From the NCBI RefSeq assembly GCF_012524075.1, contig NZ_JAAZUI010000003.1, positions 62,001 to 126,000 of the forward strand: a DNA stretch of 64,000 bases, read 5' to 3'. The DNA comes from Lutibacter sp. B1. Its GTDB lineage: Bacteria > Bacteroidota > Bacteroidia > Flavobacteriales > Flavobacteriaceae. Under the pieces are notes generated by a model, which was not told the origin of the DNA, ran no database searches, and worked only from the letters and a program-made list of their open reading frames with translations. A program made the position numbers and the translations under genes. Shown here piece by piece: positions 19,606-39,905 of the stretch (position 1 is its first letter; each line of letters begins with the position of its first letter).

Positions 19606-19687
19606 GCCTCGATGGCGGAATTGGTAGACGCGCTGGATTCAAAATCCAGTTCTTTCGGGAGTGTGGGTTCGATTCCCACTCGAGGTA
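19606..19687 (+). tRNA. tRNA-Leu, anticodon CAA
   Basis: An 82-nt cloverleaf. Acceptor arms GCCTCGA (19606-19612) and TCGAGGT (19680-19686) pair with a G-T at the first position; A at 19687 is the discriminator. The anticodon stem CTGGA/TCCAG encloses loop TTCAAAA, giving anticodon CAA (codon UUG). It has a long class II variable arm and a T arm GTGGGTTCGATTCCCAC. CCA is not encoded. Stands alone. Confidence 0.95.
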
Positions 19688-20260
19688 CAGTTTTAGATAA
19701 AAAAGGAAAACAAAAGAAAGTTAAACACTGTGAATTAGTAAAAATTTAAAAAATTAGCTTTTATTGCTTTCCTTTTTTATATCTTAATTTTGAGCTTTTT
19801 TATTGTAAATAGGATCAATTTCTTCGATTTTATTTCATTTATCTATAACTACAATAATAAATTAGTTGAATTTAAAACAATTTGATTGAAGTTTTATATT
19901 TAATAGTGTTAATTTAAAAATATTATTCTTCTCAGTATAATAATATTCTTTTTGTGAAATAATTAGGATATATATTTTAAAGTAAACAAATAATAATGTT
20001 GAAAAACGAGACACTTAAAACTAAAAAATCAATTGATCTAGAATTTTTATCCAAAACCAAATCATGTTATAAAGTTGATTTTAAATAATAAAAAAGTGTT
20101 AAATTATTTAGCCAAAAATAAACTTTAATAACAATTCTCTAACCCTTTCTAAAGAATATAATAATTATATGATAATATAAAAAAGTTTACTATTAGTAAA
20201 TAATTAATGATTTTAGCTTACTAAATTTTAATAATTGTAAAAAAATTAATTATTTAAAAA
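19688..20260 (+). other. 573-bp AT-rich intergenic region before the first susC
   Basis: No supported gene. Contents: an imperfect stem around 19700-19778 (AAAAAGGAAA ... TTTCCTTTTT) that could end the tRNA transcript; an AT-only 9-bp hairpin at 19919-19927 / 19939-19947; a 30-codon frame at 19996-20088 with no recognisable similarity; and a 15-bp palindrome at 20186-20200. A 16-mer (TTTAGCCAAAAATAAA) near 20109 also occurs near 16357. No TAnnTTTG box close to susC, so its promoter is not identified. Confidence 0.5.
20186..20200 (+). promoter_or_regulatory. 15-bp palindrome upstream of the phosphonate-locus susC
   Basis: TTTACTATTAGTAAA is a perfect inverted repeat (TTTACT-ATT-AGTAAA), 60 nt before the susC ATG. 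Size and position suit an operator for a dimeric HTH protein such as the XRE-cupin regulator at the far end of this locus. A partly similar ACTATTA occurs just upstream of that regulator gene on its own strand. Confidence 0.4.
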
Positions 20261-23200
20261 ATGAAAAAACTAACCAACTTCATTATTTTGTTACTATTAT
20301 TTTTAGTTTCAAATGTTATCGCTCAAAACACACCTGCTAGTATAAAGGGTGTTATTTATGAAGGAGAAACAGAAACTCCATTACCTGGGGCAACTATATT
20401 TATTAGAGGTACTGAAAAAGGAGTAACTTCTGATTTTGATGGAAATTTTAAAATTTCAGGTATTGAACCAGGAAACTACCAATTACTTATAACTTTTATG
20501 GGTTATACGGATAAGATGATTCCAGTAAAATTAATTGCTGATCAAGAATTAGATTTAGGGGTTATAAAACTTGAAACTTCATCACAGCTTTTAAATGAAG
20601 TTGTGGTAACAGCTCTTAACATTACTCGAGATGAAAAATCTCTTGGGTACTCACTTCAAAAAGTTGATGGAGAAGAGGTCTCTCAATCAACAAGTACCAA
20701 CATGGTAAGTACATTATCCGGTAGAACAGCAGGTGTACAGGTTGTTACCAATGGTACAGGTCCAGGGCAATCTTCATCTGTAGTAATAAGAGGGTATTCT
20801 TCTATGAATGGAGATAACCAACCTTTGTTTGTTGTAGATGGTATTCCGATTAATAATACTACAGACACTAGAACTAATACTTTAGGAGGAGCTAGTAATA
20901 TGAATTTAGATTATGGAAACGGAGCAGCTGAAGTTAATCCGGATGATATTCAATCTATATCAGTATTAAAAGGAGCAAATGCAACAGCTTTGTATGGTTC
21001 AAGAGCAGCTAATGGAGCTATAGTTATTACTACTAAATCAGGAAAAGGACAAAAAGGATTGGGTGTATCAATTAGTTCAAAAACCACTTTTGAAAGTATG
21101 CTTGAAGGACCTAAATACCAAAGGGTTTACGGACAAGGCAAGAACTTTGATTTTCAATTTTTAGATGGATATGGTAATGGAACTTATGATGGTGTAGATG
21201 AATCTTGGGGACCTAGATTAGATGGGACACTTAGAGCACAATTTGATTCTCCAACTTCTACAGGTCTTAGAGGAGGTGATGTTCACGGACTAGATTATAT
21301 TTTAGGTCCATCAGGTGTTGATTTAAATAGAAGAGGAATAATAAACCCAACACCTTTTGTTGATCATGGAGATCCTGTTGAAAATTTTTTACAAACAGGA
21401 AGAACTTTAACAAATAATGTTTCTTTTTATGGAGGAAATGAATTAGGAAACTATCGTGTTAGTTATACAAATCTTGATAATGAAGGAATATTACCTAATA
21501 CAGATATTAAAAGAAATACCATTTCGTTTTCAGGAGATTACAACCTTTCAGATAAATTAAAGGTATCTTCTAAAGTAAATTATATAAGAACGGATTCTGA
21601 TAACAGACACGTAAATGGATATGGAACAGAATCTGTGATGTATCTTTTTATATGGTGGGGGCAAAGTGTTAATGTAAAAAGCCTCAAAGATTATTGGCAA
21701 AACGGATTAGAAGGTTTTCAACAATTTAATTACAACTATAATTACCATGACAACCCTTATTTTACAATGTATGAAAATACAAATGGTCTTGCTAAAGATA
21801 GAATTATTGGAAATTTGTCTGCAACATATGATGTAACTGATAATTTTAAAGTTATGGTAAGAGGAGGAAGAGATTTTTTCTCTGAATATCGTTTTATAAA
21901 AAGAGCTTATTCAACTCAACGTTTTCCTAACGGCCAATATAGAGAGGATAAAATTAATTTTCAGGAAACCAATTTAGATTTCTTATTAACGTATGATAAA
22001 CAAATTAATGAGGATTGGTATCTAAATGCAAATTTTGGAGGAAATAGAATGGTTCAAAAAAATCATTTCAATTCATTAATGGCTAATAAACTGTTATTAC
22101 CTGGCGTTTATTCTTTTAATAATGCAGATGGAGCTTTAGTGCAAAGAACTAGCAGACCGGAAAAGCAAATAAATTCATTATATGCTTTTACGCAACTAGC
22201 TTGGAAAAATAAAGTTTATTTAGATTTAACTGCAAGAAACGATTGGTCTTCAACACTTCCTGAGAAAAATAATTCATACTTCTATCCTTCAGCTTCTTTA
22301 AGTGTAATACTTTCTGATTTATTTGAAGTTAATAAAGAGAAACTTTCCTTTGCTAAAATTAGAGCAGGATGGGCACAAGTAGGTAGTGATACAGACCCGT
22401 TTAGATTGTCTGATTCATATTTGTTAGGAACTCCTGTTGGAAGCAATCCAACAGCAAGCCCTTCTAATTCACTACCTAATTACGATTTAAAACCGGAAAT
22501 ACAAACTTCTTTTGAAGTAGGAACAGATTTAAGGTTTTTAAATGATAAAATTTCATTAGACCTAACCTATTATAATACTATTTCAAAAAATCAAATTTTA
22601 GATATTGAACTTCCTGTAACTTCAGGAAAAACATCAAGGGTAATTAACGCAGGTAAAATTAAAAACTATGGTTTAGAGTTATTATTAGATGTAATTCCTC
22701 TAGATAATGAAAATGGTTTTAAATGGAATTCAACTTTTAATTTTGGTCTTAATAAAAATGAAGTAATGGAACTTTCAGGGGGTGTTGACAAATACGTATA
22801 TGGAGGAAATGGAATTACTTTAGTTGCTGAAAAAGGAGGTTCTTTGGGTGATATGTGGGGAACAGGATTAAAAAGAGTTGAAGATAAAGATAGTCCCTAT
22901 TATGGAGAAGTAATTTTTAATAATGGTTTAGTTCAACAAGATAATACACTTAGAAAACTTGGAAATTTTAACCCAGATTTTAATTTGGGATGGAACAATA
23001 AAATAAGTTATAAAAACTTTGCTTTAAACTTTTTGTTTGATTGGAGACAAGGAGGTGAATTACTTTCTAGAACTCGTCTTATAGCAGCTACATCAGGTAA
23101 TGTTGTTGAAACACTTTGGGGGCGAGATCCTGAATTTGGAGGTCCTCATCCTGGAATTAGTGATTCGGGGTTGTCATATACTGATAATAATGGGGTAGCA

Positions 23201-23602
23201 CAAACCGATGGTATAATTGGTAATGGTGTAATTGAACTTACAGACATCGATGGAAATGTAACAGGATATAAAGAAAATGATGTTATAGTTGCTGCAAATG
23301 CATACCATAATAATAGATATAGAAGACAAAATGTATCTGAAGGAATTTATGATGCCACATTTATTAAACTAAGAGAGGTTAAGTTAACATATTCATTTCC
23401 AGATGAAATAATTAATAAGTTGGGAGTTCAAAACATGTCTTTGTCATTAATTGGAACTAACGTATGGTTATGGGCTAAAGAATTTAAACATGGAGATCCG
23501 GAACTACTTTCTTTTGGTGGAGGATCATATGTGCCAGGAGTAGAAAATGCAACTGTACCAAGCACAAAAAGTTTTGGTTTTGCCTTGGATTTAAAATTTT
23601 AA
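20261..23602 (+). CDS. SusC/RagA-family TonB-dependent outer-membrane transporter (phosphonate locus)
   Basis: 1113 aa. A signal peptide (to about VIAQ, residue 22) is followed by a CarboxypepD-reg beta-sandwich (about 27-110), a TonB plug (about 115-240, with PLFVVDGIPINN), and a 22-strand barrel to the C-terminal aromatic residue (ALDLKF). It imports ligands captured by its SusD partner, driven by TonB. Eight enzyme genes and a carrier follow on the same strand with tiny gaps; the enzymes handle phosphoesters and amino-phosphonates, not sugars. That suggests an organophosphorus substrate rather than a polysaccharide. Ligand inferred from context only. Confidence 0.92.
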   Translation: MKKLTNFIILLLLFLVSNVIAQNTPASIKGVIYEGETETPLPGATIFIRGTEKGVTSDFDGNFKISGIEPGNYQLLITFMGYTDKMIPVKLIADQELDLGVIKLETSSQLLNEVVVTALNITRDEKSLGYSLQKVDGEEVSQSTSTNMVSTLSGRTAGVQVVTNGTGPGQSSSVVIRGYSSMNGDNQPLFVVDGIPINNTTDTRTNTLGGASNMNLDYGNGAAEVNPDDIQSISVLKGANATALYGSRAANGAIVITTKSGKGQKGLGVSISSKTTFESMLEGPKYQRVYGQGKNFDFQFLDGYGNGTYDGVDESWGPRLDGTLRAQFDSPTSTGLRGGDVHGLDYILGPSGVDLNRRGIINPTPFVDHGDPVENFLQTGRTLTNNVSFYGGNELGNYRVSYTNLDNEGILPNTDIKRNTISFSGDYNLSDKLKVSSKVNYIRTDSDNRHVNGYGTESVMYLFIWWGQSVNVKSLKDYWQNGLEGFQQFNYNYNYHDNPYFTMYENTNGLAKDRIIGNLSATYDVTDNFKVMVRGGRDFFSEYRFIKRAYSTQRFPNGQYREDKINFQETNLDFLLTYDKQINEDWYLNANFGGNRMVQKNHFNSLMANKLLLPGVYSFNNADGALVQRTSRPEKQINSLYAFTQLAWKNKVYLDLTARNDWSSTLPEKNNSYFYPSASLSVILSDLFEVNKEKLSFAKIRAGWAQVGSDTDPFRLSDSYLLGTPVGSNPTASPSNSLPNYDLKPEIQTSFEVGTDLRFLNDKISLDLTYYNTISKNQILDIELPVTSGKTSRVINAGKIKNYGLELLLDVIPLDNENGFKWNSTFNFGLNKNEVMELSGGVDKYVYGGNGITLVAEKGGSLGDMWGTGLKRVEDKDSPYYGEVIFNNGLVQQDNTLRKLGNFNPDFNLGWNNKISYKNFALNFLFDWRQGGELLSRTRLIAATSGNVVETLWGRDPEFGGPHPGISDSGLSYTDNNGVAQTDGIIGNGVIELTDIDGNVTGYKENDVIVAANAYHNNRYRRQNVSEGIYDATFIKLREVKLTYSFPDEIINKLGVQNMSLSLIGTNVWLWAKEFKHGDPELLSFGGGSYVPGVENATVPSTKSFGFALDLKF

Positions 23603-23657
23603 CAATTTGAATCCAATTAGTAATAAGTATAATAATGCAGATTAAAAACATAAAAAA

Positions 23658-25115
23658 ATGAAAAAAATAATTTTTACTGCGATCATCATATTTACAGGTT
23701 TATTTATTTCTTGTGAAGATTTTGATGTTTCAAATGATAATCCTGATGTAGCTTTAAATATCAGTAACAACCCAGAGTTATTGTTAACTCAATTTCAAAG
23801 AAATTCTATCAGAGGGGCTGTATCGTACTCTTGGAGTGAAGGAAATTTAATGGGGCAATATGGGGCCAGAATTGTATTTACCGAATTTGACTTATTTGAA
23901 TGGGGAGATCAATCGGGAGCATGGAATAATTTTTTTATTAGTATAAGAGATGCTAAAGCCTTAGAACAAATTGCTGTTGAAGAATCTATACCAAGTTATG
24001 AAGCAGTTTCTAAAATAATGCAAGTGTGGATGTTTAATATACTAACAGATATGTGGGGAGATATACCTTATACAGAAGTAGCTAAAGCAAATGAAGAAAA
24101 TTATTTTCCGGTTTATGATGAACAACAGTTTATTTACTCAGATATGATTGATAAATTGAAAGAGGCAAATGATATTTTAAGCGGAACTAACGCTACTTTA
24201 AAAGGAGATTTATTATTTGATGGGAATCTTTCTAAATGGAGAAAATTCGCTAATTCATTAAGGTTACGTTTAGCTTTGAGACTAAGTAAGGTTGATGCGT
24301 CAAAAGCTCAATCTATTATTAGTGAAATTTACGGAAATCCTTCTCAATATCCAGTAATGGAATCTAATATTGATAATGTAATACTTCAGTTTTTATCTTC
24401 AAATCCTGATGCACACCCTGTAACCGAAGAATCTGTTTATAGAGTAGGATCTTACAATGAATATAGAATTTCTGAGAATTTTGTAGGAATCCTTAAAAGT
24501 TTTAATGATCCAAGACTTGAGTTTTTAGCAGATCCAACTGCAAATTCTGTAGAAAATGGAACTCCGGAAATTCAAGGTATGCAAAACGGTATTGTTGATG
24601 GGCCGGCATACGAATATAAAGGTGGAGACGCATTTTTATCCAAATTTAATATAGACTACTTTTATTTACAACCAAATGCAAATGATGCCAGATTAATGCT
24701 ATCTTCTGAGGTAGACTTTATTTTTGCTGAAGCCGCGCAAAGAGGTTGGATTAATGCTGATGCTAAAACTTTTTATGAAAAAGGGATTCAATCTAATTTT
24801 GAATATTGGGACGTTGAAATGCCTACAGATTATCTTTCACGTACAGGTGTTATATACAATGGAGCATTAGAAACCATTATTAATCAAAAATATATATCAT
24901 TGTTTTATACCGATTATCAGGGTTTTATAGAATTTAAAAGAACTGGTTTTCCAAGCACAATAAAACCTGGCCCTGATGCTTTTTATAGTACATACCCAAG
25001 TAGATTTGAGTATCCTAGCGAGGAGCAATCTTTAAATGCTGATAATTATAATGAAGCAGTAAATCGTATGAATGGTGGGGATGAAATAACTACCAAAGTG
25101 TGGTGGGAAAATTAA
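23658..25115 (+). CDS. SusD/RagB-like nutrient-binding lipoprotein (SusD-like_2 type)
   Basis: 485 aa. Lipoprotein signal with lipobox ending at Cys (LFISCED), so it is anchored in the outer membrane and faces outward. Helical TPR-type SusD fold; the early segment with RNSIRGAVSYSW and QYGARIVF fits the SusD-like_2 subgroup, which often accompanies non-glycan SusC transporters. It starts 55 nt after susC and should form the lid of that transporter. Ligand unknown; context suggests a phosphonate or phosphodiester compound. Confidence 0.88.
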   Translation: MKKIIFTAIIIFTGLFISCEDFDVSNDNPDVALNISNNPELLLTQFQRNSIRGAVSYSWSEGNLMGQYGARIVFTEFDLFEWGDQSGAWNNFFISIRDAKALEQIAVEESIPSYEAVSKIMQVWMFNILTDMWGDIPYTEVAKANEENYFPVYDEQQFIYSDMIDKLKEANDILSGTNATLKGDLLFDGNLSKWRKFANSLRLRLALRLSKVDASKAQSIISEIYGNPSQYPVMESNIDNVILQFLSSNPDAHPVTEESVYRVGSYNEYRISENFVGILKSFNDPRLEFLADPTANSVENGTPEIQGMQNGIVDGPAYEYKGGDAFLSKFNIDYFYLQPNANDARLMLSSEVDFIFAEAAQRGWINADAKTFYEKGIQSNFEYWDVEMPTDYLSRTGVIYNGALETIINQKYISLFYTDYQGFIEFKRTGFPSTIKPGPDAFYSTYPSRFEYPSEEQSLNADNYNEAVNRMNGGDEITTKVWWEN

Positions 25116-25138
25116 GAATCTATTCAAAATAGTTTAAA

Positions 25139-26785
25139 ATGAAATTTACTAAATTAATAGTAGTAACCATAGGGGTTTTGTCCCTATGGTCTTGTAATAC
25201 AAAAGAAAAAACAAAACCATTAGGTATTCAACATGTTGTAGTTATTGGTTTTGATGGTTTAAGTCCGAATGGACTTAAAAATGCAAAAACTCCTAATTTT
25301 GATAGTATTATAAAAGAAGGAGCTTATACACTTCATGCTAGAGCTGTTTTGCCTACAAGTTCAAGTTCAAATTGGGCGTCAATGATTATGGGATCGGGGC
25401 CGGAACAGCATGGTATTACTTCTAATCAATGGGAAAGGAATAATTTAATTTTACCAACTGTTATCGAAGATGAGCATTTCTTGTTCCCTACAATTTTTGG
25501 CTTAATTGATAATCAAGTTGAAAATGCTGAAATAGGAGCTATTTATCATTGGGAAGGTTTTGGAAGACTTTTTGAAAAAAAAGCTGTGGATTATGATGTA
25601 AATGGCAAAACCGAGGATGAAACTGCAAACTTGGCCATTGAATATATCAAAACTAAAAAACCAACATTTACATTTATTCATTTTGATCATGTTGACCATG
25701 CTGGTCATGAATTTGGACATGGAACGGAAGAGTATTATAAATCTGTAGAAAAAGCAGATAATTTTTTAGGTGAAATAATCAATGCTATTAAAGAAACTGG
25801 CATTGAAGATAATACTTTAGTAATAATTAGTGCAGATCATGGAGGGATTGGTAAAGGACATGGTGGCGAAACCTTAGAAGAAATTGAAATTCCATTCATT
25901 CTTTGGGGAAAGTCTGTAAAAAATGATTTTAAAATTAAATATCCAGTATATCAATACGACAATGCTGCTACTGTAGCCTTTGCGTTAAATATTAAAATGC
26001 CTTATGCGTGTATTGGAAAGCCTGTAAAATTTGCTTTTGAAGGTTACGAAGTTTCTGATAACTATCCACTTTTAGAAATGATGGAAAAACCAATAATATT
26101 TCCAAACTCAAACTCAAATAAACGCAATGGAGGTTTGTTTAATGAGGAAACAATTGTAAAAATAGAAAACCCTAATAATTTAGGTGAAATCCATTATACA
26201 TTAGATGGTTCGATGCCTACAATAGATTCAGAAAAATATACAGAAACTATTAAAGTTAATAAAAATATAATTGTAAAAGCAGCTATTTTTAATGAAGGAA
26301 AAATTAGAAGTTCAGTGGCAGAAGCTTTTTATCGTATAAAACCTGCTAATTACTTAGCACCTGTTTCTTATGAGCTTTATTATCTTGAAAATTTAACAAA
26401 TATCCCAAATTTAGAAAATAAAATACCTGACGTTAAAGGAAATTGTTTTGAAATTACTTCTGATGAAATAAATGAAGAAATAAAGGAAAATACAGCGGTT
26501 AAATTCAAAACTAAAATTGAGGTTAAAGAAAATGATACCTATACTTTTTTTACCCGATCAGATGATGGAAGTAAACTATGGGTAAATAGTGAAGAAGTGG
26601 TTAATAATGACGGTGATCATGGAGTAATAGAAAAGGGTGGAAAAATTGAATTAAAAAAAGGAATATATCCTTTAGAAGTAATATGGTTTAATGCTGCTGG
26701 TGGCAGTTGGTTAGATGTATATTATAAAAGTAATTCCATTTCTAAACAAATTATATCCACAACTATTTTAAAAAGAAATGATTAA
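25139..26785 (+). CDS. Type I phosphodiesterase (alkaline phosphatase superfamily) with CHB_HEX-like and PA14-like domains, lipoprotein
   Basis: 548 aa. Lipobox at LSLWSC, so surface- or periplasm-anchored. Residues about 30-320 are an ENPP-type metal phosphodiesterase: GFDGLSPN, a Ser/Thr-rich nucleophile loop PTSSSSNWASM, FDHVDHAGHEFGHG and SADHGG as zinc ligands. About 333-400 resemble a chitobiase C-terminal beta-sandwich (HYTLDGSMPTID); about 435-547 look like PA14 (FFTRSDDGSKLWVN), both usually glycan-binding. It probably cleaves phosphodiester or phosphonate monoester links on a larger molecule before uptake. It begins 23 nt after susD and overlaps the next gene by 8 nt. Confidence 0.85.
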   Translation: MKFTKLIVVTIGVLSLWSCNTKEKTKPLGIQHVVVIGFDGLSPNGLKNAKTPNFDSIIKEGAYTLHARAVLPTSSSSNWASMIMGSGPEQHGITSNQWERNNLILPTVIEDEHFLFPTIFGLIDNQVENAEIGAIYHWEGFGRLFEKKAVDYDVNGKTEDETANLAIEYIKTKKPTFTFIHFDHVDHAGHEFGHGTEEYYKSVEKADNFLGEIINAIKETGIEDNTLVIISADHGGIGKGHGGETLEEIEIPFILWGKSVKNDFKIKYPVYQYDNAATVAFALNIKMPYACIGKPVKFAFEGYEVSDNYPLLEMMEKPIIFPNSNSNKRNGGLFNEETIVKIENPNNLGEIHYTLDGSMPTIDSEKYTETIKVNKNIIVKAAIFNEGKIRSSVAEAFYRIKPANYLAPVSYELYYLENLTNIPNLENKIPDVKGNCFEITSDEINEEIKENTAVKFKTKIEVKENDTYTFFTRSDDGSKLWVNSEEVVNNDGDHGVIEKGGKIELKKGIYPLEVIWFNAAGGSWLDVYYKSNSISKQIISTTILKRND

Positions 26786-28049
26786 AATTTTAAGTATAAT
26801 AAGTCTCTACATTTGTTTAATTTCAGAGTCACTTCTTTTTTCCCAAGAGGTAGAATATCCTGCTTGGGAAATTGGAGTGATGGAGTTACACCATATAAGC
26901 ACCGGAAGAGGTGATGCGGCTTTTTATATTTTTCCTGACGGAACAACTCTCTTAGTTGATGCAGGGGATACTTCTGAAACGCATCCAAGAACAATGACCA
27001 ATCGTAATGTTCCTTTGTTGCCAAACAGATCTAAAACAGCACCAGAATGGATTGTAGATTATATTACTCAATTTTTTCCAAAAAATAAACCTTTACAATT
27101 AGATTATGCTTTGATGACTCATTATCACGATGATCATTTTGGAGAAATAGATAGTACAAGAGTATTATTCAATAAAGGGAATTATGCTTTAACGGGTATT
27201 ACAGAAGTAGGGCATTTGTTACCCATCAAAACTTTACTGGATCGCGGTTCTGATTTTCCGTTAAATTTAAAAAATTCACTTGTTCAAGAAAGTTTGAGTA
27301 AAAATGATACATATAAAATGATTTCAACGTTAAAAAACTATTGGAATTTTATTGAATATCATAGTCAACATAATGGTTTAAAGCATGAAATTTTAGAAGT
27401 AGGATCTAAAAATCAAATTAGTTTAAAAAATGAAGCTAAAAAATATTCTAATTTTTCAGTTCAAAATATTGCGGTTAATGGTAAAATTTGGACAGGTGAA
27501 AAGCAAGAATATTTTAATCTATTTAAAGAAGGAGAATATCCAGGCGAAAATTCATTAAGCACTTGTATAAAAATAACCTATGGTAAGTTCGATTATTTTA
27601 CAGGAGGGGATATTAGTGGAGTTAATGAGTTTGGTGAATCAGATTTTGACAGAGTTGAATCACATATCGCACCAGTTGTTGGTCCGGTAGATGTAGCTAC
27701 ATTAAATCATCATGGTAACAGAGATTCACAAAACAGCTATTATGTTAGAACTATAAGACCCAGAGTTTGGATTGGGCAAACTTGGTCATCGGATCATCCG
27801 GGAAATAATGTACTAAGAAGGTTACTTTCTAAAAAATTATATCCTAGGAAAAGAGATCTTTTTTCAACGGCAATGTTACAAGCAAATAAAGATGTAATTG
27901 GAGAATTAATGGATAAATATAAAAGCTTAAGTGGGCATATTGTAGTTAGAGTTTATGCTAATGGAGACAAATATGATGTTTATGTGTTGAATGAAAATTC
28001 AGAAAAAAGAGAGGTAAAGGCTAAATACGGACCTTATGAGTCAAGATAA
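26778..28049 (+). CDS. Exported metallo-beta-lactamase-fold hydrolase
   Basis: 423 aa. N-terminal signal peptide (about residues 1-22, ending LLFSQ). The MBL metal motif HxHxDH is at H115, H117, D119 and H120 (THYHDDHFGEID), preceded by LLVDAGDTSE. Later metal ligands are in TGGDISG and LNHHGN. The overall shape is the ComEC/Rec2-type MBL branch without its membrane part. This family includes phosphodiesterases, and the neighbours are phosphoesterases, so a phosphodiester or phosphonate ester substrate is plausible but unproven. Overlaps both neighbours (8 and 14 nt), so translation is coupled. Confidence 0.8.
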   Translation: MIKILSIISLYICLISESLLFSQEVEYPAWEIGVMELHHISTGRGDAAFYIFPDGTTLLVDAGDTSETHPRTMTNRNVPLLPNRSKTAPEWIVDYITQFFPKNKPLQLDYALMTHYHDDHFGEIDSTRVLFNKGNYALTGITEVGHLLPIKTLLDRGSDFPLNLKNSLVQESLSKNDTYKMISTLKNYWNFIEYHSQHNGLKHEILEVGSKNQISLKNEAKKYSNFSVQNIAVNGKIWTGEKQEYFNLFKEGEYPGENSLSTCIKITYGKFDYFTGGDISGVNEFGESDFDRVESHIAPVVGPVDVATLNHHGNRDSQNSYYVRTIRPRVWIGQTWSSDHPGNNVLRRLLSKKLYPRKRDLFSTAMLQANKDVIGELMDKYKSLSGHIVVRVYANGDKYDVYVLNENSEKREVKAKYGPYESR

Positions 28050-29382
28050 ACATAGTAAAGTTACTGAAGGAGATATAAATTACTCTTTAGAACGTGATTT
28101 GTGGAACACAAATCACACAGATAAGGAAACAATTAGCTTATTAGAAAAAGATGCGCGTTATTTTTTACATCAATCTATGTCAACACCATGTTTGGATGTT
28201 TTACAAAATTGTGAAGGAGTTTTTATAGAGAACATTGAAGGTAAAAAATATTTAGATTTTCATGGTAACAATGTGCATCAAATAGGATTTTCTAATCCTT
28301 TGTTAGTTGAAAGACTTACAGAACAATTAAAAAAACTCACCTTCTCAACACGTAGATATACAAATGAAGCCGCCATTAATTTTGCTGAAAAACTGGCATC
28401 TTTAACACCATCAGATTTAAACAAAGTTTTATTAACACCAAACGGAAGTTCAGCAGTTGGTATGGCATTAAAACTTGCAAGAGCCGTTACCAAGAAGTTT
28501 AAAGTAGTCTCTTTTTGGGATTCATTTCACGGAGCTTCGTTAGATACAATTAGTGTTGGTGGCGAAGCAAATTTCAGAGAATATATGGGACCTTTAATGC
28601 CTGGTGTAGAACGTATTCCTCCACCTGTAAGTTATCGAGGTATTTTTGAAGGAAATGAAGATAAATGCTTGGAATATTTAGAATATGTTTTTAAAAAAGA
28701 AGGAGAAATAGGAGCTTTTATAGCAGAAACTATTAGAAATACAGATGTGCAGATTCCATCTCTACATTTTTGGAAAGAAGCTAGGGAATTATGCAATAAG
28801 TATGGCGTATTACTTATTCTGGATGAAATACCTATTGCATTAGGTAGAACCGGTAAAATGTTTGCTTTTGAAAATTATGATATTGAACCAGATATTTTAT
28901 GTTTAGGAAAAGGATTAGGAGGAGGAATTTTTCCTCAAGCTGCAATTATCACAAGAGATCAATTTAATAATTTTGGTGATATTTCTTTAGGACATTATAC
29001 GCACGAGAAAAGTCCGTTAGGGGCAATTGCCGGGCTTACCACAATTGAAATTATTGAAAATGAAGGCTTATTAAAAAAAGTATTGGATGATGAAATTTAT
29101 GTGAAAAATGCTTTGGAAAAACTTAAAGATAAGTATGAAATTATAGGAGGTGTAAGAGGAATAGGTTTATTGTGGGGTATAGAATTGGTAAAAGATAGAA
29201 AAACCAAGGAAAAAGCTTTAAGTGAAGCAGAAAAATTGATGTATGAATGCTTAAAAAAGGGACTAAGTTTTAAGGTTTCAGCAGGAAATGTAATACAATT
29301 ATCACCCGCGTTAACTATTTCAAAAGATGAATTAGATATTGCATTAACTATTTTAGATAAAAGTTTATCCATAATTCACTAA
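28036..29382 (+). CDS. pbfA: Class III PLP enzyme, probable (R)-1-hydroxy-2-aminoethylphosphonate ammonia-lyase (PbfA-like)
   Basis: 448 aa, fold-type I, no signal peptide. PLP lysine is K292 in CLGKGLGGG; the cofactor Asp is in LILDEIPIALGRTG. The N-terminal stretch (FLHQSMSTPCLDVL, then FHGNNVHQIGF and TRRYTNEAA) matches from memory the clade described as PbfA, which eliminates ammonia from R-HAEP to give phosphonoacetaldehyde, rather than ordinary omega-transaminases. The PhnX-like hydrolase 5 kb downstream would use that product. The main alternative is an O-phosphoethanolamine phospho-lyase, a close relative. No PhnW transaminase is in the window. Confidence 0.75.
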   Translation: MSQDKHSKVTEGDINYSLERDLWNTNHTDKETISLLEKDARYFLHQSMSTPCLDVLQNCEGVFIENIEGKKYLDFHGNNVHQIGFSNPLLVERLTEQLKKLTFSTRRYTNEAAINFAEKLASLTPSDLNKVLLTPNGSSAVGMALKLARAVTKKFKVVSFWDSFHGASLDTISVGGEANFREYMGPLMPGVERIPPPVSYRGIFEGNEDKCLEYLEYVFKKEGEIGAFIAETIRNTDVQIPSLHFWKEARELCNKYGVLLILDEIPIALGRTGKMFAFENYDIEPDILCLGKGLGGGIFPQAAIITRDQFNNFGDISLGHYTHEKSPLGAIAGLTTIEIIENEGLLKKVLDDEIYVKNALEKLKDKYEIIGGVRGIGLLWGIELVKDRKTKEKALSEAEKLMYECLKKGLSFKVSAGNVIQLSPALTISKDELDIALTILDKSLSIIH

Positions 29383-29408
29383 AGTGAATTCAATCAAAAT
29401 ATAAGTAA

Positions 29409-31001
29409 ATGAGAACAATTATACTAGTATTTCTTTCGGTTTTAGTATTTCCTTTTTTTGGAAATTCACAAAACAATGAAATTGAAATTTTGATACAACC
29501 GTATCTTCAAGATGCAACACCTAATTCTATTAAAATACTTTGGGAAACAACTGAAGAAGATGAAAGTATTGTAGAATATGGACTTACTCCAAAATTAGGA
29601 AAGAAAGCTACAGGAATATCTTTTGATGTTAATTTTACCGCATCCAGAATTCATGAAGTTAAAATTGATGGATTAAAAAAGTTCACAGAATACTACTATA
29701 GAGTTAAAACCAAAAATGTTATATCAGATATTTTTCAGTTTAAAACACCACCTTTTGCAAACGATAACGAATCATTTAATATAATTGCAATGAGCGATAT
29801 GCAGTATGATCCTAATAATCCCAATAAGTTTTCGGAAATTGTAAATGAAGGAATATTGACGTACCTAAAAAAAGAATTTAAAGGCTCTCTTCCAAATAAT
29901 TTAGCATTAGTGATGATTCCCGGCGATTTGGTACAAGACGGAACAAAATATTTTCAATGGAAAGAGCACTTTTTTAATCCTTCTGAAAAGTTATTTGGCA
30001 ATGTTCCTGTATATCCGGTTTTGGGAAACCATGAGAAAAATTCAATCTTTTATTTTAAATATTTTAGTCTTCCTGAAAACGGTACACCAGCTTATGCAGA
30101 ACATTGGTGGTTTAAAGACTATGGAAATACAAGAATTATTGGATTAAATTCTAATGATGGATATAGAGATTCAAAAGAGCAGTATGTTTGGTTAGAAAAA
30201 CTTTTAGAAGATACTTCAAAAAACGAAGATATAGATTTTGTTTTTGCTCAATTACATCATCCTTACAAATCAGAATTATGGATTCCGGGAGAAACAGATT
30301 TTACAGGGAAAGTAGTAAAATTATTGGAAAAATTCAGTTCGGAAACAGGTAAACCCAGTATTCATTTTTTTGGTCATACACACGGCTATTCCAGAGGTCA
30401 GTCTAAAGACCACAAACACTTGTGGATAAACGTTGCATCAGCAGGAGGAGCAATTGATAATTGGGGCGAATTTGAAGGAAGAGATTATGATGAGTTTACA
30501 GTAACTCAAGATGAATATGGTTTTGTAATGGTGGAAGTAGATGGCAGTAAAGATGATCCAAAATTTACGATAAAAAGAATTAGTAGAGGTAATGAAGATA
30601 CGTTTAGAAACAATGAAGTTACTGACAGTATTACTATTTGGAAAAAAGAAAGAAAACCTATAGAACCTGAGGCATTAACGCCTAACAATGAAACACTAAA
30701 TATTGAAGGAATTATTTTAAAAGCCGGTACTTTTAAAAGTAATTTTAAAGGTGCTTTTCACGCAGCATCAAACTGGCAAATTGCAGAAACAAAAGATTTT
30801 GTTAATCCGATTTTTGATAGTTGGAAACAACATGAAAATTGGTATTATTTAGAAAACAGACAAAAAGACGATAATCTGTCTGATGTAAATACAAAACGAT
30901 TAAAACCAAATATAACGTATTATTGGAGAGTGCGTTATAGAGACCAAAATCTGAATTGGAGTAATTGGTCAAATATATCATCTTTTAAAACTAAAGAATA
31001 A
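29409..31001 (+). CDS. Purple-acid-phosphatase-like metallophosphoesterase, exported
   Basis: 530 aa. Signal peptide ending near GNSQ (residue 21). N-terminal fibronectin/PAP-N-type domain (about 25-115). Calcineurin-like core with all metal motifs: MSDMQYD, IPGDLVQDG, LGNHEKN, QLHHPYKS and FFGHTHGYSRG. C-terminal beta-sandwich (about 425-530) with YYWRVRYRD. It likely hydrolyses a phospho-monoester or -diester in the periplasm or outside. It is one of three structurally unrelated phosphoesterases in this locus. It begins 26 nt after the pbfA-like gene and its stop overlaps the next start (TAATG). Confidence 0.85.
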   Translation: MRTIILVFLSVLVFPFFGNSQNNEIEILIQPYLQDATPNSIKILWETTEEDESIVEYGLTPKLGKKATGISFDVNFTASRIHEVKIDGLKKFTEYYYRVKTKNVISDIFQFKTPPFANDNESFNIIAMSDMQYDPNNPNKFSEIVNEGILTYLKKEFKGSLPNNLALVMIPGDLVQDGTKYFQWKEHFFNPSEKLFGNVPVYPVLGNHEKNSIFYFKYFSLPENGTPAYAEHWWFKDYGNTRIIGLNSNDGYRDSKEQYVWLEKLLEDTSKNEDIDFVFAQLHHPYKSELWIPGETDFTGKVVKLLEKFSSETGKPSIHFFGHTHGYSRGQSKDHKHLWINVASAGGAIDNWGEFEGRDYDEFTVTQDEYGFVMVEVDGSKDDPKFTIKRISRGNEDTFRNNEVTDSITIWKKERKPIEPEALTPNNETLNIEGIILKAGTFKSNFKGAFHAASNWQIAETKDFVNPIFDSWKQHENWYYLENRQKDDNLSDVNTKRLKPNITYYWRVRYRDQNLNWSNWSNISSFKTKE

Positions 31002-32104
31002 TGAAAAAAATAAGTTTAATAATTAGCATAATTTTATTGCTGTCTTTTATAGGAAATGCACAGCAAAAAACTCAGAAAAGTGAGCCAAATATATTCGTAA
31101 TAACTTTAGATGGAGTTAGGTGGCAAGAAGTTTTTACCGGAATTGATACTGTTTTATTGGAAAACAAAAAATATACACACGACAAAAAGGTTTTATCAGA
31201 AAAATTTATAGGAGAAAGTATAGAGGAAAACCGGAAAAAATTAATGCCATTTTTTTGGAATACAATAGTTAAAGAAGGACAAATATATGGTAACAGAAAT
31301 AAAAATAGCTTTGTTAATCTCACAAATAAAATGGTTTTCTCATATCCTGGATATAACGAGATTTTAACCGGAAAAGCCGATGATGCGACTATTAATAGCA
31401 ACGATAAAATTTATAATAAAAACATTACAGTTTTAGAAAAAATAAATCAAAATCCACAGTATAAAAATAAAGTTGCTGCTTTTGGAAGTTGGGATGTTTT
31501 TCCTTTTATAATTAATGACAAAAGAAGTGGCATACCTGTAAATGCAGGATATATGAAAGCTACCGGAGATGATTTAACGGAAAGAGAAATATTTTTAAAT
31601 GAAATACAATGGCAAGCTCCAATAATTTGGGAATCGGTTAGGTTAGATGTGTTTACGCATCAATATGCAAAAGAATATATTAAAAAGAAACAACCAAAAG
31701 TGGTATATATTGCTTATGGTGAAACTGATGATTTTGCGCATGGAGGTTTGTTTGATTATTATATTAAATCGTTATATACTGCCGATTCTATGATTGAAGA
31801 TTTGTGGAATTATGTTCAAAATAATCCTTTTTATAAAAACAATACTTATTTTATTATCACTACAGATCACGGTAGAGGTGTTGGAGATGATCCCGAATCA
31901 ATGTGGACAAGTCATGGTTCAAAAGTAAAAGATGCAGACCAAACATGGTTAGCTGTTATGGGGCCAACAATTAAAGCAAAAGGAGAAATTAAAGAAATAT
32001 CACAAAATTACACCAACCAAATTGCCGCTACTGTAGCTAAATTGCTTGGTTTAGATAATTTGATAGATGATAAAATTGGAAAACCTTTTATTTCAAACTG
32101 GTAA
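31001..32104 (+). CDS. Alkaline phosphatase superfamily hydrolase (sulfatase/phosphodiesterase-like), exported
   Basis: 367 aa. Signal peptide to about residue 20 (IGNAQQ). LDGVRWQEVF at the start of the fold, a nucleophile region around VFSYPGYNEILTG, metal ligands in YGETDDFAHGG and TTDHGRG, and a final His in WTSHGSK. It is close in architecture to phosphonoacetate hydrolase (PhnA) and ENPP relatives but shorter. In this setting it could remove phosphate, a phosphodiester group or the phosphonate of a derivative. Exact substrate unknown. Overlaps the preceding stop by 1 nt and is followed after 7 nt by the carrier gene. Confidence 0.82.
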   Translation: MKKISLIISIILLLSFIGNAQQKTQKSEPNIFVITLDGVRWQEVFTGIDTVLLENKKYTHDKKVLSEKFIGESIEENRKKLMPFFWNTIVKEGQIYGNRNKNSFVNLTNKMVFSYPGYNEILTGKADDATINSNDKIYNKNITVLEKINQNPQYKNKVAAFGSWDVFPFIINDKRSGIPVNAGYMKATGDDLTEREIFLNEIQWQAPIIWESVRLDVFTHQYAKEYIKKKQPKVVYIAYGETDDFAHGGLFDYYIKSLYTADSMIEDLWNYVQNNPFYKNNTYFIITTDHGRGVGDDPESMWTSHGSKVKDADQTWLAVMGPTIKAKGEIKEISQNYTNQIAATVAKLLGLDNLIDDKIGKPFISNW

Positions 32105-32111
32105 TTGAAAA

Positions 32112-33413
32112 ATGAAATTAAGCAGAAAAACATACATGCCAAAAAGTAAAATATATATTATTATCCAAGCTATTATAGCTTCTTTTGGAACTTATTTTTG
32201 TATGTATGCTTTTCGTAAACCATTTACAGTTGCAACTTTCGAAGGTTTTTCTTACTGGGGAGTAGATTACAAAATTTTGTTGATTATTTCTCAAGTATTG
32301 GGTTATATGCTTTCAAAATTTATTGGAATAAAAGTTATTTCAGAAATGAAGCAAGAACGTCGTGGTATTTTTTTAATAGGATTGATTATTGTAGCAGAAC
32401 TGGCTTTATTGTTATTCGCCTTAACTCCCAAACCATACAATATTGTTTTTATGTTTTTAAACGGCTTACCATTAGGGATGATTTGGGGTATTGTATTCTC
32501 TTATCTTGAAGGCAGGCGTTATACTGAAATTTTTGGTGTAGCTTTAAGTTCAAGTTTTATTGTATCGTCAGGTTTTGTTAAATCTACAGGAAAATTTGTA
32601 ATGGATAGCTGGCATTTTTCAGAATTATGGATGCCTTTTATTACAGGAATTTTATTTATTGTACCCTTACTTTTTTTTACATTTTTATTAGAAAGACTAC
32701 CTAAACCGGATGAAGAAGATGAAAATTTGAAAACAAAAAGGGTTCCTTTATCAAAAAAAGAAAGGAAGAAACTATTTTTAAAATTTGCTTTTCCTATTAT
32801 TATTTTGGTTGTTTTCTATACAGCACTAACGGCTTTTAGAGATTTGAGAGATAATTTTGCCAGAGAACTTTGGGACACTTTAGGTTATCAAGACAGCTCC
32901 AGTATATATACAACAGCAGAAATTCCTATAGCCATAGCTGTATTGGTAATTTTGGGACTGTTAGCTTTTATTAAAAATAATATGAAAGCATTTTTAATTT
33001 ACCATTATTTGATACTTTTTGGAACAATTATTATTGGTATTAACACATGGTTGTTTCAACAACAGGTTATATCTCCTTTAGTTTGGATGGTACTTACTGG
33101 TTTTGGCTTATACATTTGTTACGTTCCTTTTAACTGTATCTTTTTTGATAGAATGATTGCAACTTTTAAAATTAAAGGAAACTCAGGTTTTCTTATATAT
33201 ATTGCAGATTCTTTCGGGTATTTAGGAAGTATGGCAGTGCTACTGTATAAAAATTTTGGTCAGTCTTCTATTTCTTGGTTACAATTTTTCACCTATGGCA
33301 CTTATGTAATTTCTGTAATAGGAATAATTATTACTGTAATTTCTTTATTTTATTTTATAATGAAATATAAAAAAAATGCTGAAGTAAAAGCATATAGTGT
33401 ACAAGCGTTATAA
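32112..33413 (+). CDS. MFS-type membrane carrier (DUF5690 family)
   Basis: 433 aa with about twelve hydrophobic helices and a basic central loop (about 200-220). The first helices carry CMYAFRKPFTVATF, a pattern shared by the DUF5690 group and reminiscent of the GlpT/UhpT organophosphate antiporter branch. It should move a small solute across the inner membrane. Lying between periplasmic phosphoesterases and cytoplasmic phosphonate enzymes, it is the natural candidate for import of the released amino-phosphonate. No ABC phosphonate transporter is present in the window. Family moderately sure; substrate inferred. Confidence 0.75.
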   Translation: MKLSRKTYMPKSKIYIIIQAIIASFGTYFCMYAFRKPFTVATFEGFSYWGVDYKILLIISQVLGYMLSKFIGIKVISEMKQERRGIFLIGLIIVAELALLLFALTPKPYNIVFMFLNGLPLGMIWGIVFSYLEGRRYTEIFGVALSSSFIVSSGFVKSTGKFVMDSWHFSELWMPFITGILFIVPLLFFTFLLERLPKPDEEDENLKTKRVPLSKKERKKLFLKFAFPIIILVVFYTALTAFRDLRDNFARELWDTLGYQDSSSIYTTAEIPIAIAVLVILGLLAFIKNNMKAFLIYHYLILFGTIIIGINTWLFQQQVISPLVWMVLTGFGLYICYVPFNCIFFDRMIATFKIKGNSGFLIYIADSFGYLGSMAVLLYKNFGQSSISWLQFFTYGTYVISVIGIIITVISLFYFIMKYKKNAEVKAYSVQAL

Positions 33414-33484
33414 TTAAATAATTGATATAATATTAAAAAGAAAGCTATTTATAAAAGAAAAAAAATATAAAAATAAACTTGAAA

Positions 33485-34156
33485 ATGATAAAATTAGTAG
33501 TATTTGATATAGCAGGAACCACTGTTAACGAGAATAATGTAGTTTATAAAACTTTAAGAAAAGCAATAAATAAAGCCGGTTATAATTTTTCTTTAGAAAC
33601 GGTTTTAGAACATGGCGCAGGTAAAGAAAAACACCAAGCCATTAAAGATATTATTGCTCTGGAAAACAATAAAAATGGTGATGAGGAATCGTTAAGTATT
33701 TTTAATGTTTTTTCTAATTTATTAAAAATGAAGTATGCAGACTTAAAGGTTAGAACGTATCCAAATACTGAAGAAGTTTTTGAAAAATTAAAGGAAAATG
33801 ATATTAAAATAGTTTTGAATACGGGGTATGATAAAAAAACAGCCCGATCACTACTTTCAAAATTAAAATGGGAAAAAGGCAAACATTACGATGAACTTAT
33901 AACCGCGAGCGATGTTGAAAATAGCAGACCTGCACCTGATATGATAAATTTGGCAATGGATTTTTTTGATATTAAAGATTCTAAGAAAGTGGTTAAAGTT
34001 GGAGATTCAATAATTGATATTGAAGAAGGGAAAGCGGCTAATTGCGGAATTACAATTGGCGTTACAACAGGTGCACACACTAAAGAACAATTACAAAGTG
34101 CACAACCAACTTATATTATTGATAATCTCAGTGAACTAATTCAAAAAATACTTTAA
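33485..34156 (+). CDS. Phosphonatase-like HAD hydrolase (PhnX-like)
   Basis: 223 aa from the ATG at 33485; a TTG two codons earlier is possible. The HAD nucleophile motif is DIAGT (D8), the DxAGT form special to phosphonoacetaldehyde hydrolase and its 'PhnX-like' sister clade. A cap-domain Lys (K47 in HGAGKEKHQ) is where PhnX has its Schiff-base lysine. The C-terminal metal motif is KVGDSIIDIEEG. It would split phosphonoacetaldehyde into acetaldehyde and phosphate. The sister clade's true substrate is not settled, so a related phosphono-aldehyde is possible. It lies 1 nt before the FAD oxidase. Confidence 0.82.
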   Translation: MIKLVVFDIAGTTVNENNVVYKTLRKAINKAGYNFSLETVLEHGAGKEKHQAIKDIIALENNKNGDEESLSIFNVFSNLLKMKYADLKVRTYPNTEEVFEKLKENDIKIVLNTGYDKKTARSLLSKLKWEKGKHYDELITASDVENSRPAPDMINLAMDFFDIKDSKKVVKVGDSIIDIEEGKAANCGITIGVTTGAHTKEQLQSAQPTYIIDNLSELIQKIL

Positions 34157-34157
34157 T

Positions 34158-35399
34158 ATGGAAAATAATGTAATTGACAGTGTTGATGCCATTGTAATTG
34201 GAGCAGGTACAATAGGTTGTGCTACAGCATGGCATTTAGCAAAAAGAAGTGTTAATAAAGTGCTGTTAATTGACAGAAATACTATTGGAAGTGGTAATAC
34301 GTCTAAAGCAGCATCATTAATGACGTTGGTTAGAACTAAAGAAGAGTTGATTCCTCTAATTCAAGAAACCTATAAAAATATTGATGAAATAGAACAAGAA
34401 ACAGGTGAAAAAACAGGTAAAAATAAAGTAGGCACACTTCATATTGCTTCCTCTGAAGAGTCGGTAGTTAATCTTAAAAAAATAGTTGCTATTGCAAATA
34501 AACATCATATTAAAAATAAGGAAATAGGTATTGAAGAGGTAAAAAAGAAAGTTACTTGGTTAGATACTTCATCTATTAAAAAAGTTTCTTTTATGGAAGA
34601 TGATTCTTTTCTAGATGCGTATTTGTTGGCAAATGCATTTGCAAAAGCTGCTAAATTAAAAGGCGCAACAGTAATGCAAAATACTGAAGTTATTGAATTG
34701 CTTTCTGAAAACAACCAAATTACCGGTGTAAAAACAACTAAAGGAATTATTAAATCATCCATAGTTATTGATTCGGCAGGCGCTTGGTCTAACCTATTAT
34801 CTTTACAGCTAAACATACCAATACCAATGGCTCCGGTAAGAAGTATTTATTGGATTACCGAAAAAAATGATAAGTTGTTTCCGCACGATCATCCTATGAT
34901 AGTAATGCCTGATGCTATGGCATATTCCAGACCGGAAAATGGAGCTTTATTGTTTGGGTTAAGAGAAGAAAACAGTCCACATTTTCATCCAAATAAATTA
35001 AATCCAAAACCTAATTCTGATTTTTTAGGGCCTAAAGATGATGAATGGGATATTTTAGAAAATTATGGGAAAGATTTTATCAATTATTTTCCTGAATTTG
35101 AAGAAATTGGAATGAAAAATTGTATTACAGGAATTTCTACGTATACGCCTGATGGATATTATACCGTTGGACCTTTTCCTAATTTTAAAGGATTTTACGC
35201 TGCAACAGGTTGTGCAGGAGCAGGTGTGGCAGGTTCGGGGGGAATAGGAAGATTAATTGCAGAAATGATTTTAAAAATTCCTTTGTTTACAAGTGCTGAA
35301 AAATTTAGAATTGACAGATTTTCTGATTTTGATCCATTATCTGAAAATTTTAGACAAAAATGTGCCGATGCAAGAAGTAAGAAAAAAGATGGCGGATAA
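34158..35399 (+). CDS. DAO-family FAD-dependent oxidoreductase, probable aminophosphonate oxidase
   Basis: 413 aa. The N-terminal dinucleotide fold is IVIGAGTIGCATAWHL, followed by SGNTSKAASL as in sarcosine and glycine oxidases; the C-terminal FAD motif is TGCAGAGVAGSGGIGRL. Related FAD oxidases beside PhnX-type genes oxidise N-methyl-2-aminoethylphosphonate, and some oxidise AEP itself, to phosphonoacetaldehyde, replacing PhnW. Immediate adjacency to the PhnX-like gene fits that role. It could instead act on another secondary amine. Last plus-strand gene of the locus; the regulator converges 25 nt later. Confidence 0.8.
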   Translation: MENNVIDSVDAIVIGAGTIGCATAWHLAKRSVNKVLLIDRNTIGSGNTSKAASLMTLVRTKEELIPLIQETYKNIDEIEQETGEKTGKNKVGTLHIASSEESVVNLKKIVAIANKHHIKNKEIGIEEVKKKVTWLDTSSIKKVSFMEDDSFLDAYLLANAFAKAAKLKGATVMQNTEVIELLSENNQITGVKTTKGIIKSSIVIDSAGAWSNLLSLQLNIPIPMAPVRSIYWITEKNDKLFPHDHPMIVMPDAMAYSRPENGALLFGLREENSPHFHPNKLNPKPNSDFLGPKDDEWDILENYGKDFINYFPEFEEIGMKNCITGISTYTPDGYYTVGPFPNFKGFYAATGCAGAGVAGSGGIGRLIAEMILKIPLFTSAEKFRIDRFSDFDPLSENFRQKCADARSKKKDGG

Positions 35400-35424
35400 A
35401 ATAATGTCGATAAAAAAGGTTTAA

Positions 35425-36006
35425 TTAACTTAATTCAGTTTCATTAAAAAAATACAAAACTAACATTTTAGCAGGTTCTGAATCTTTATTAATAGGAACA
35501 TGAGGGAAACGGCCATCAAAAAATAACGAATCTCCTTCTGTAATTTCAATTTCTTCATTATCAATTATATAAGAAATTTTGCCACTTAACATATATTTAA
35601 ATTCGTAAGCATCGGTAGTTACTTTATCGCGTTTACTATTTGGTAAAACTTCTAATAAAACTGCCTCAAAACCAATTGATGATAAACTTTTATTAAATAT
35701 AAATTTATAAACAAAGCCTTCTGCTTCAACTTCTTTTTCAATTTCAGAATATTCGTTTTTTCTTGTAACAATAAATTTTTTACCATTTATTTTTTCCATT
35801 CCATCAAAAAAAGAACTGAGTTCAATTTCTAAGGCTCCAATAATATTTAATAGTACAGGTAATGAAGGTATTGTACGTCCGTTTTCAATTCTGGAAATTA
35901 ATCCGTTACTAACACCGGCTTTAGTAGCAACTTCACTTATAATTAATTGCTTTTTTTTTCTAATTTTTTTAATTTGCTTTCCAATATCTAGTAAATAATC
36001 GTCCAT
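35425..36006 (-). CDS. XRE-cupin transcriptional regulator (PuuR-like)
   Basis: 193 aa. An N-terminal HTH_3 domain (about residues 6-62, QLIISEVATKAGVSNGLISRIENGRT) is followed by a C-terminal cupin (about 110-185, with GDSLFFDGRFPHVPIN). Regulators of this type sense small amines or amino acids and control the adjacent catabolic genes. It is convergent to the phosphonate locus, so any control of susC would act at a distance; the 15-bp palindrome at 20186-20200 is a candidate site. Codon use is like its neighbours. Confidence 0.85.
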   Translation of the reverse strand: MDDYLLDIGKQIKKIRKKKQLIISEVATKAGVSNGLISRIENGRTIPSLPVLLNIIGALEIELSSFFDGMEKINGKKFIVTRKNEYSEIEKEVEAEGFVYKFIFNKSLSSIGFEAVLLEVLPNSKRDKVTTDAYEFKYMLSGKISYIIDNEEIEITEGDSLFFDGRFPHVPINKDSEPAKMLVLYFFNETELS

Positions 36007-39884: not shown

Positions 39885-39905
39885 CTCGCCACTACAATTT
39901 TGTAA

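Follow-up and report, generated by a model that had tools for sequence, protein, structure and literature searches.

A candidate Sus-type locus for the import and mineralisation of aminophosphonates in Lutibacter sp. B1

We analysed a 64,000-nucleotide (nt) stretch of the genome of Lutibacter sp. B1 (Flavobacteriaceae; contig NZ_JAAZUI010000003.1), hereafter the window, which is part of a 3.42-Mb genome (G000, contig C129), and focused on a compact run of genes at positions 20261-36006 that combines a SusC/SusD pair and exported esterases with putative enzymes of aminophosphonate degradation. A check of the open reading frames (ORFs) matched all coordinates of an initial annotation made from the DNA alone, with its 11 closely spaced or overlapping genes, ten of them on the + strand and the eleventh the convergent XRE-cupin regulator gene. 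The genes are the following:

20261..23602, + strand: SusC-like TonB-dependent outer-membrane transporter, 1113 aa (PF13715, PF07715 and PF00593 over cut-off)
23658..25115, + strand: SusD-like protein, 485 aa, with a lipobox-like Cys19 (PF12771, 302.6 bits; N-terminus by eye)
25139..26785, + strand: ENPP-type phosphodiesterase, probable lipoprotein, 548 aa, with Fn3_assoc and PA14 domains (PF01663, 118.4 bits)
26778..28049, + strand: exported metallo-beta-lactamase (MBL)-fold protein, 423 aa, candidate esterase (weak MBL Pfam match; invariant H115-x-H117-D118-D119-H120)
28036..29382, + strand: PbfA, a class III pyridoxal phosphate (PLP) enzyme (NF049939, 719.2 bits, cut-off 525; clade)
29409..31001, + strand: exported purple-acid-phosphatase (PAP)-type metallophosphoesterase, 530 aa (PF16656, 72.7 bits; PF00149, 54.7 bits)
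31001..32104, + strand: exported alkaline-phosphatase-superfamily protein (AP2), 367 aa (PF01676, 27.7 bits, cut-off 24.3)
32112..33413, + strand: DUF5690 membrane protein, 433 aa, presumed inner-membrane carrier (PF18943, 589.4 bits)
33479..34156 (likely ATG 33485), + strand: PhnX-like HAD hydrolase, 225 aa, presumed phosphonoacetaldehyde hydrolase (TIGR03351, 225.4 bits, cut-off 218.9)
34158..35399, + strand: PbfC-type flavin adenine dinucleotide (FAD) enzyme of the DAO family, 413 aa, presumed dehydrogenase of N-methyl-aminoethylphosphonate (N-methyl-AEP) (37% identical to an Azospirillum B510 FAD enzyme; clade 97/95)
35425..36006, - strand: XRE-cupin regulator, 193 aa (PF01381, HTH_3; PF07883, cupin)

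From the SusC to the FAD gene, successive spacings are 55, 23, -8, -14, 26, -1, 7, 65 and 1 nt (negative values are overlaps), and the regulator gene converges on the FAD gene at a distance of 25 nt. Judged by eye, the HAD gene starts at ATG 33485 rather than TTG 33479, which would widen the gap after the DUF5690 gene from 65 to 71 nt. With its SusC-SusD tandem and hydrolases that appear by eye to be exported, the locus falls within the definition of a Sus-type system. The gene order recurs in part across many genera and is thus more than a chance arrangement. The regulator is weakly PuuR-like (49.9 bits, under the cut-off of 211), and its relatives were found in 56 of 80 named loci, which were kept from 571 relatives and by design are close ones.

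The PLP enzyme is PbfA by curated model and clade, and lyase activity on (R)-1-hydroxy-2-aminoethylphosphonate (R-HAEP) is presumed for it. It was the only one of six matches in its genome to exceed the PbfA cut-off, and in a tree of 34 rows it fell, with the Vibrio and B510 proteins, into one 27-row group (support 100/99), outside which lay four class III paralogues from its own genome. With the Vibrio PbfA, which is encoded in a phnW-pbfA-phnX cluster, it shares 58% identity (558 bits, BLASTP). An ordinary transaminase or a phospho-lyase was rejected on the cut-off passed and the clade, in agreement with the PbfA-like label first given to this gene. A separate PbfA group, 41-45% identical to the window protein and with 100/100 support in the tree, was observed in L139, L141, L143 and L148; in L143 its gene directly follows the HAD gene inside the locus.

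The HAD hydrolase passed TIGR03351, a hypothetical equivalog whose PhnX-like function is putative, by 6.5 bits, and was rejected as canonical PhnX by model (TIGR01422, 110.3 vs 220 bits). The motif DxAGT was present in 78/78 and G-x-x-K-x-x-A in 77/78 distinct HADs over 200 aa. Both DxAGT and the cap-lysine stretch, already pointed out in the initial annotation, align with PhnX (2iof), where either lysine 49 or 51 may be the counterpart, and we take DxAGT and the cap lysine to be catalytic in PhnX.

The FAD enzyme passed no curated model, and its identity as PbfD was rejected by its TIGR03364 score (34.1 vs 285.1 bits) and its tree placement. Searched against plasmids, its top match was the Azospirillum B510 enzyme (207 bits, the others at most 147, among the best 40 of 464 records), to which it aligns over its full length (412 columns) and with which it groups in a 29-row tree; conversely, the window enzyme was the only match of the B510 protein in the Lutibacter genome. 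The B510 gene order is PhnW, PhnX, FAD enzyme and PbfA, all except the FAD enzyme scoring over model cut-offs. PbfC has been described from Azospirillum B510, in a cluster of phnWX, PbfA and PbfC, as a dehydrogenase that prefers N-methyl-AEP about 400-fold over AEP and uses O2 poorly (PMC10590968). From organism and cluster, rather than from the accession, we take the B510 gene (L231:6995-8230) to be this characterised PbfC (WP_012976454). The window enzyme is thus PbfC-type, with a presumed N-methyl-AEP dehydrogenase role. The original proposal of an FAD enzyme acting on aminophosphonates stands in this form, with the qualification that, given the 400-fold preference, AEP itself may be a poor substrate.

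Degradation without PhnW, C-P lyase or an ATP-binding cassette (ABC) transporter had been expected. In the Lutibacter genome the best PhnW score was 127.3 bits against a cut-off of 400.8 (one that the PhnW-type protein of a Kriegella locus, L057, also fails, at 352), and genome profile searches gave no match to PhnJ or phosphoenolpyruvate mutase; no ABC transporter genes were found in the locus, the rest of the genome not having been searched for them.

On the exported side, SusD and the ENPP-type protein carry Cys19 in lipobox-like surroundings, and SusC, MBL, PAP and AP2 have Sec-type N-termini, as judged by eye. Three exported phosphoesterases are present, as first reported; they represent two folds rather than three, the ENPP-type protein and AP2 belonging to one superfamily, and the MBL protein adds a further one. 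The best Protein Data Bank (PDB) match of the ENPP-type protein was ENPP4 (E 2.7e-15), and D39, D183, H234 and H241, presumably metal ligands, are among its invariant columns (27 sequences). In AP2, the motif S-[YF]-P-[GA]-Y-x-E was found in 65/65 distinct relatives over 250 aa. The MBL protein matched its Pfam family weakly (19.8 bits, under the cut-off of 22.7), although H115-x-H117-D118-D119-H120 was invariant in 25 sequences; the top PDB matches of its profile were three chains of pneumococcal phosphorylcholine esterase (1wra, E 2.8e-7, a value that combines two separate pieces of some 15 bits, each non-significant by itself); two ComEC-type chains came next (E 0.006 and 0.024). The pneumococcal enzyme removes a zwitterionic group from a glycopolymer. 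The SusD protein is of the PF12771 type, with PF14322 at 21.4 bits (under 27) and no PF07980, and Pfam scans of the locus detected neither glycoside hydrolases nor lyases.

At the position where a major facilitator superfamily (MFS) carrier had been proposed there is indeed a membrane protein; its family, however, is DUF5690, for which we found no MFS model match even at E 10 and no PDB match up to E 1. Compared with three MFS carriers of relatives, it reached an hhalign probability of 2% with thin profiles. It had been considered as a recognisable GlpT-family member because of an R-K motif close to its first membrane segment; this identity was rejected on the 2% probability and the missing PDB match. 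The family occurs in 23/23 genomes with the HAD enzyme, and the Kriegella locus contains a GlpT-like carrier (1pw4, E 5.7e-34), which makes functional replacement by DUF5690 possible. We infer that DUF5690 may act as the phosphonate carrier.

We then compared the locus with its relatives. PbfA over cut-off was found in 21 of 299 same-family genomes and in 15 of 395 genomes of the phylum (the samples overlap and both include the Lutibacter genome), and 22 stretches from the same family and 13 from other families were considered. Of the 22, 21 cover the 22 matches of the same-family sample outside the Lutibacter genome (two matches in G018 share one), and one comes from the phylum sample, as do the 13. 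The controls were 40 stretches, each 19.9 kb long, taken from ten of these genomes. Using broad profiles that include the PF07980-type SusD, SusC plus SusD occurred in 18/22 same-family PbfA stretches vs 6/40 controls (p 3e-7). BLAST with queries from the case loci gave 17/22 vs 0/40; this control was rejected as too favourable because of the queries used. A SusC/D pair near any gene is therefore not rare in these genomes, and the excess near pbfA is clear. In 16 of the 22 stretches the ENPP gene comes directly after the SusD gene on the same strand, and SusC, SusD and ENPP occur together in 63/80 named loci, so that the linkage expected by the initial annotation was found in other genomes. 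Several of the Flavobacteriaceae genomes with the locus presumably belong to marine genera.

With window proteins as BLAST queries, ENPP was detected in 18 same-family vs 6 other-family stretches, PhnW in 1 vs 7, and DUF5690 in 6/22 and 5/13, the stretches often ending before the carrier. ENPP stays near pbfA in loci without SusC/D (L122, L145 and L150), and among six Chitinophagaceae/Sphingobacteriales loci (L115-L120) a SusC/D pair, of the PF07980 type, was present in one (L120). The exported and cytoplasmic genes are tightly packed: the median MBL-PbfA spacing was -23 nt (53 pairs) and the median PbfA-PAP spacing -1 nt (73 pairs), in pooled loci that overlap and with ORFs taken from the first possible codon. 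Among the 299 genomes, PbfA was present in 21, the HAD enzyme in 23 and both in 15 (Fisher 3e-15, not corrected for kinship).

Relatives swap the cytoplasmic module, which consists of PbfD plus HAD, of a PbfC-type enzyme plus HAD, or of PhnW, PhnY and PhnA. A TIGR03364-like FAD enzyme was found in 57/80 named loci, as a rule directly before the HAD gene (71 adjacent pairs over all loci, median overlap 4 nt), and HAD plus PbfD in 56/80, within the stretch covered. In L055 the TIGR03364/PbfD protein beside the HAD scored 413 bits (cut-off 285), and A. baumannii PbfD1 is reported to carry the TIGR03364 annotation (PMC10590968). The Lutibacter genome has no TIGR03364 protein over cut-off (best 55.8 vs 285.1 bits). 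The PbfC-type gene follows the HAD gene in the window and lies between DUF5690 and HAD in G057 (L218).

The phosphonate assignment is strengthened by the Kriegella locus L057, where SusC, SusD, ENPP and PbfA lie beside PhnA (474.1 bits, cut-off 407.55), PhnY (642.3, cut-off 635.65) and a PhnW-type protein (TIGR03301 406.8, cut-off 360.8; TIGR02326 352.4, under its 400.8); the window-type FAD enzyme is present and the HAD is absent from the locus. By BLAST, L224 likewise contains PhnW-, PhnY- and PhnA-like genes, the window FAD type and SusC/D. Our best hint that the HAD acts on phosphonoacetaldehyde (PAA) is that the partner of this one FAD type varies between genomes, being HAD or PhnY/PhnA. 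The combination pbfA-phnY-phnA has been said to be confined to Proteobacteria (PMC12366243, 2025); in Bacteroidota we found pbfA, phnA and phnY in L057 (9995-15208, by models) and in L145 (6781-13663) and L150 (6839-13561), both by BLAST.

Some loci showed further arrangements. Five Arenibacter loci (L043, L047, L048, L050 and L051) and L125 (G212) contain SusC/D, ENPP, PbfA and DUF5690, and no HAD or PhnY/PhnA in the stretch covered. In L216, PbfD, HAD and XRE genes lie beside SusC, a PF07980 SusD and an 828-aa metallophosphoesterase-propeller protein, with no pbfA in the stretch; this is perhaps another Sus-coupled version. L222 and L223 resemble L216, for which alone the proteins were annotated.

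Taken together, it is likely that the locus is a Sus-type system importing and mineralising aminophosphonates, and its substrates are probably R-HAEP and N-methyl-AEP. SusD and the ENPP-type diesterase would bind and cut a phosphonate-decorated glycan or lipid, SusC would take the fragments in, periplasmic cleavage of the ester by the MBL, purple-acid and alkaline-phosphatase-type enzymes would yield the free aminophosphonate, and DUF5690 would move it through the inner membrane. By homology to characterised enzymes, PbfA would convert R-HAEP to PAA and ammonia, the PbfC-type enzyme N-methyl-AEP to PAA and methylamine, and the PhnX-like HAD PAA to acetaldehyde and phosphate, a pathway in which PhnW would not be needed; the XRE-cupin regulator probably responds to a molecule of the pathway. 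This agrees with the initial annotation, whose interpretation is supported overall and whose harvest of phosphonate esters followed by carrier-mediated import we also infer. AEP and N-methyl-AEP are known on marine snail glycans and AEP on jellyfish O-glycans and others (PMC6994554), and the original isolation of R-HAEP was from a polysaccharide of amoebae (PMC8154272), so that bound aminophosphonates are a likely cargo. We put forward more tentatively, as a possibility that we would not expect to hold in full, that SusC/D binds and imports glycan or glycolipid pieces decorated with R-HAEP and N-methyl-AEP, that the ENPP-type enzyme and the Pce-like MBL protein are phosphonate-ester hydrolases releasing these groups, and that DUF5690 founds a new phosphonate carrier family.

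Several observations weigh against an aminophosphonate-importing Sus-type system. With the same broad profiles, SusC plus SusD was found in 0/13 PbfA stretches of other families, and the realistic control frequency is 6/40 rather than zero. Of the 64 named loci that have SusC, 14 encode one less than 40% identical to the window protein, which makes one common cargo uncertain. The HAD enzyme, which fails the canonical PhnX model and for which PAA is the presumed substrate, is absent in 6/21 PbfA-bearing same-family genomes; two of these (L124, L224) have PhnY/PhnA-like genes, and in the stretches fetched from the other four (G018, G121, G212 and G240) no PAA sink was found. The window-type FAD enzyme is rare (5/299 genomes, including Lutibacter sp. 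B1); four of the five genomes have PbfA, the fifth (G057) the HAD, and in G018 and G162 the FAD gene lies about 32 and 41 kb from pbfA. Finally, the presumed carrier matches neither MFS models nor PDB structures.

Three other explanations were considered. SusC/D could import small, freely dissolved aminophosphonates as a phosphorus source, with the esterases as auxiliary phosphate scavengers. Elsewhere, PbfA/PhnX-type clusters that include transporter genes have indeed been linked to free aminophosphonates (PMC8154272, PMC12366243), B510 has an AEP ABC binding protein, and the Lutibacter locus has no glycoside hydrolase; two probable lipoproteins and further exported esterases, one protein with PA14 and Fn3_assoc domains, nevertheless fit bound substrates better, and we consider free substrates unlikely. 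Somewhat less probable still is the neighbourhood of two functions, a cytoplasmic aminophosphonate operon and an unrelated SusC/D-esterase operon. This would be consistent with the MFS-PbfD-HAD-XRE block that precedes SusC in many relatives, its window counterpart lying after the esterases, with the lack of SusC/D in the other-family stretches and with the SusC/D pairs of the controls, but pbfA itself is embedded in the run of genes for exported esterases, most same-family stretches have SusD immediately before ENPP, and ENPP persists near pbfA where SusC/D is missing.

We give least credence to a PUS-type system that scavenges phosphate esters from phosphoethanolamine or phosphocholine glycans and lipids, in which the PLP enzyme would be an O-phosphoethanolamine phospho-lyase and the HAD an ordinary phosphatase. 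The three exported phosphoesterases and the MBL protein, with its faint likeness to phosphorylcholine esterase, would suit such a system, Flavobacterium is known to have PusCD clusters that include esterases (PMC8115612), and the same PLP query matched 6tor, a phospho-lyase that also belongs to the class III PLP enzymes. Yet the PbfA cut-off was exceeded by 194 bits, the match to Vibrio PbfA was far stronger than that to the phospho-lyase (147.5 bits with phmmer, a different program from the BLASTP behind the Vibrio score), and the corresponding clusters of relatives also encode either PbfD or the set of PhnW, PhnY and PhnA.

Compared with known systems, the preferred Sus-type aminophosphonate locus shares PbfA, an FAD enzyme (in B510), a phosphonatase-type hydrolase and the PAA intermediate with the phnWX-pbfA clusters of Vibrio and Azospirillum (PMC8154272, PMC10590968); those have PhnW and, in B510, the ABC binding protein, whereas the present locus has SusC/D and exported esterases and lacks PhnW and ABC genes. 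PhnW-free formation of PAA by an FAD enzyme is common to the PbfD2-PhnX pathway of Mariniblastus fucicola, for which the text available names no outer-membrane module (PMC10590968); the Lutibacter locus differs in having a PbfC-type FAD enzyme and, in addition, PbfA. From the pair of TIGR03364 (PbfD) and TIGR03351 (PhnX-like HAD), which relatives keep, the window has the TIGR03351 member. Polysaccharide utilisation loci have the same SusC/D tandem with exported hydrolases, which here are phosphoesterases instead of glycoside hydrolases or lyases. The Flavobacterium PusCD systems also associate a SusCD-like pair with phosphoesterases, and one sentence places PusCD clusters with phosphonate-degrading enzymes; PusD1 and PusD2, the only two proteins compared, are pf07980/pf14322 rather than PF12771, and no PbfA, PhnX or phosphonate substrate is named in the text available (PMC8115612).

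The chemistry, the PhnW-free formation of PAA by an FAD enzyme followed by PhnX (PMC10590968) and, as that one sentence, the SusCD-phosphonate link (PMC8115612) are thus already known, so that the view of the coupling as wholly undescribed has to be narrowed to this locus. A literature search, outside which lay subscription papers, preprints, figures and supplements, found no description of the locus, its PbfA-esterase core or DUF5690, and nothing for TIGR03351 or for phosphonate with polysaccharide utilization loci and aminoethylphosphonate.

Around the locus, a tRNA-Leu gene (CAA) lies upstream, at window positions 19606-19688. A genomic island at this tRNA was considered and rejected on base composition (G+C 30.7% for the locus, 30.8% for the window). 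Two genomes of the same genus (G047 and G269) gave no PbfA, HAD or DUF5690 match at the thresholds used, and the locus therefore looks accessory in the genus. Downstream, at 37074-51581, lies a second Sus-type locus with a Y_Y_Y/GerE regulator, SusC, SusD, a PKD protein, GH16, GH3 and GH16, which by our reading most resembles a laminarin (beta-glucan) locus.

The aminophosphonate locus offers a testable set: four exported hydrolases, a DUF5690 membrane family, and PbfC, PbfD and PhnW/Y/A as modules that replace one another naturally at a single locus. If phosphonate-decorated glycans or glycolipids do prove to be imported, it would be the first Sus-type system with a cargo defined by phosphonate decoration. 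The position of pbfA among exported esterase genes, often beside SusC/D in Flavobacteriaceae, points to bound phosphonates as a natural source.

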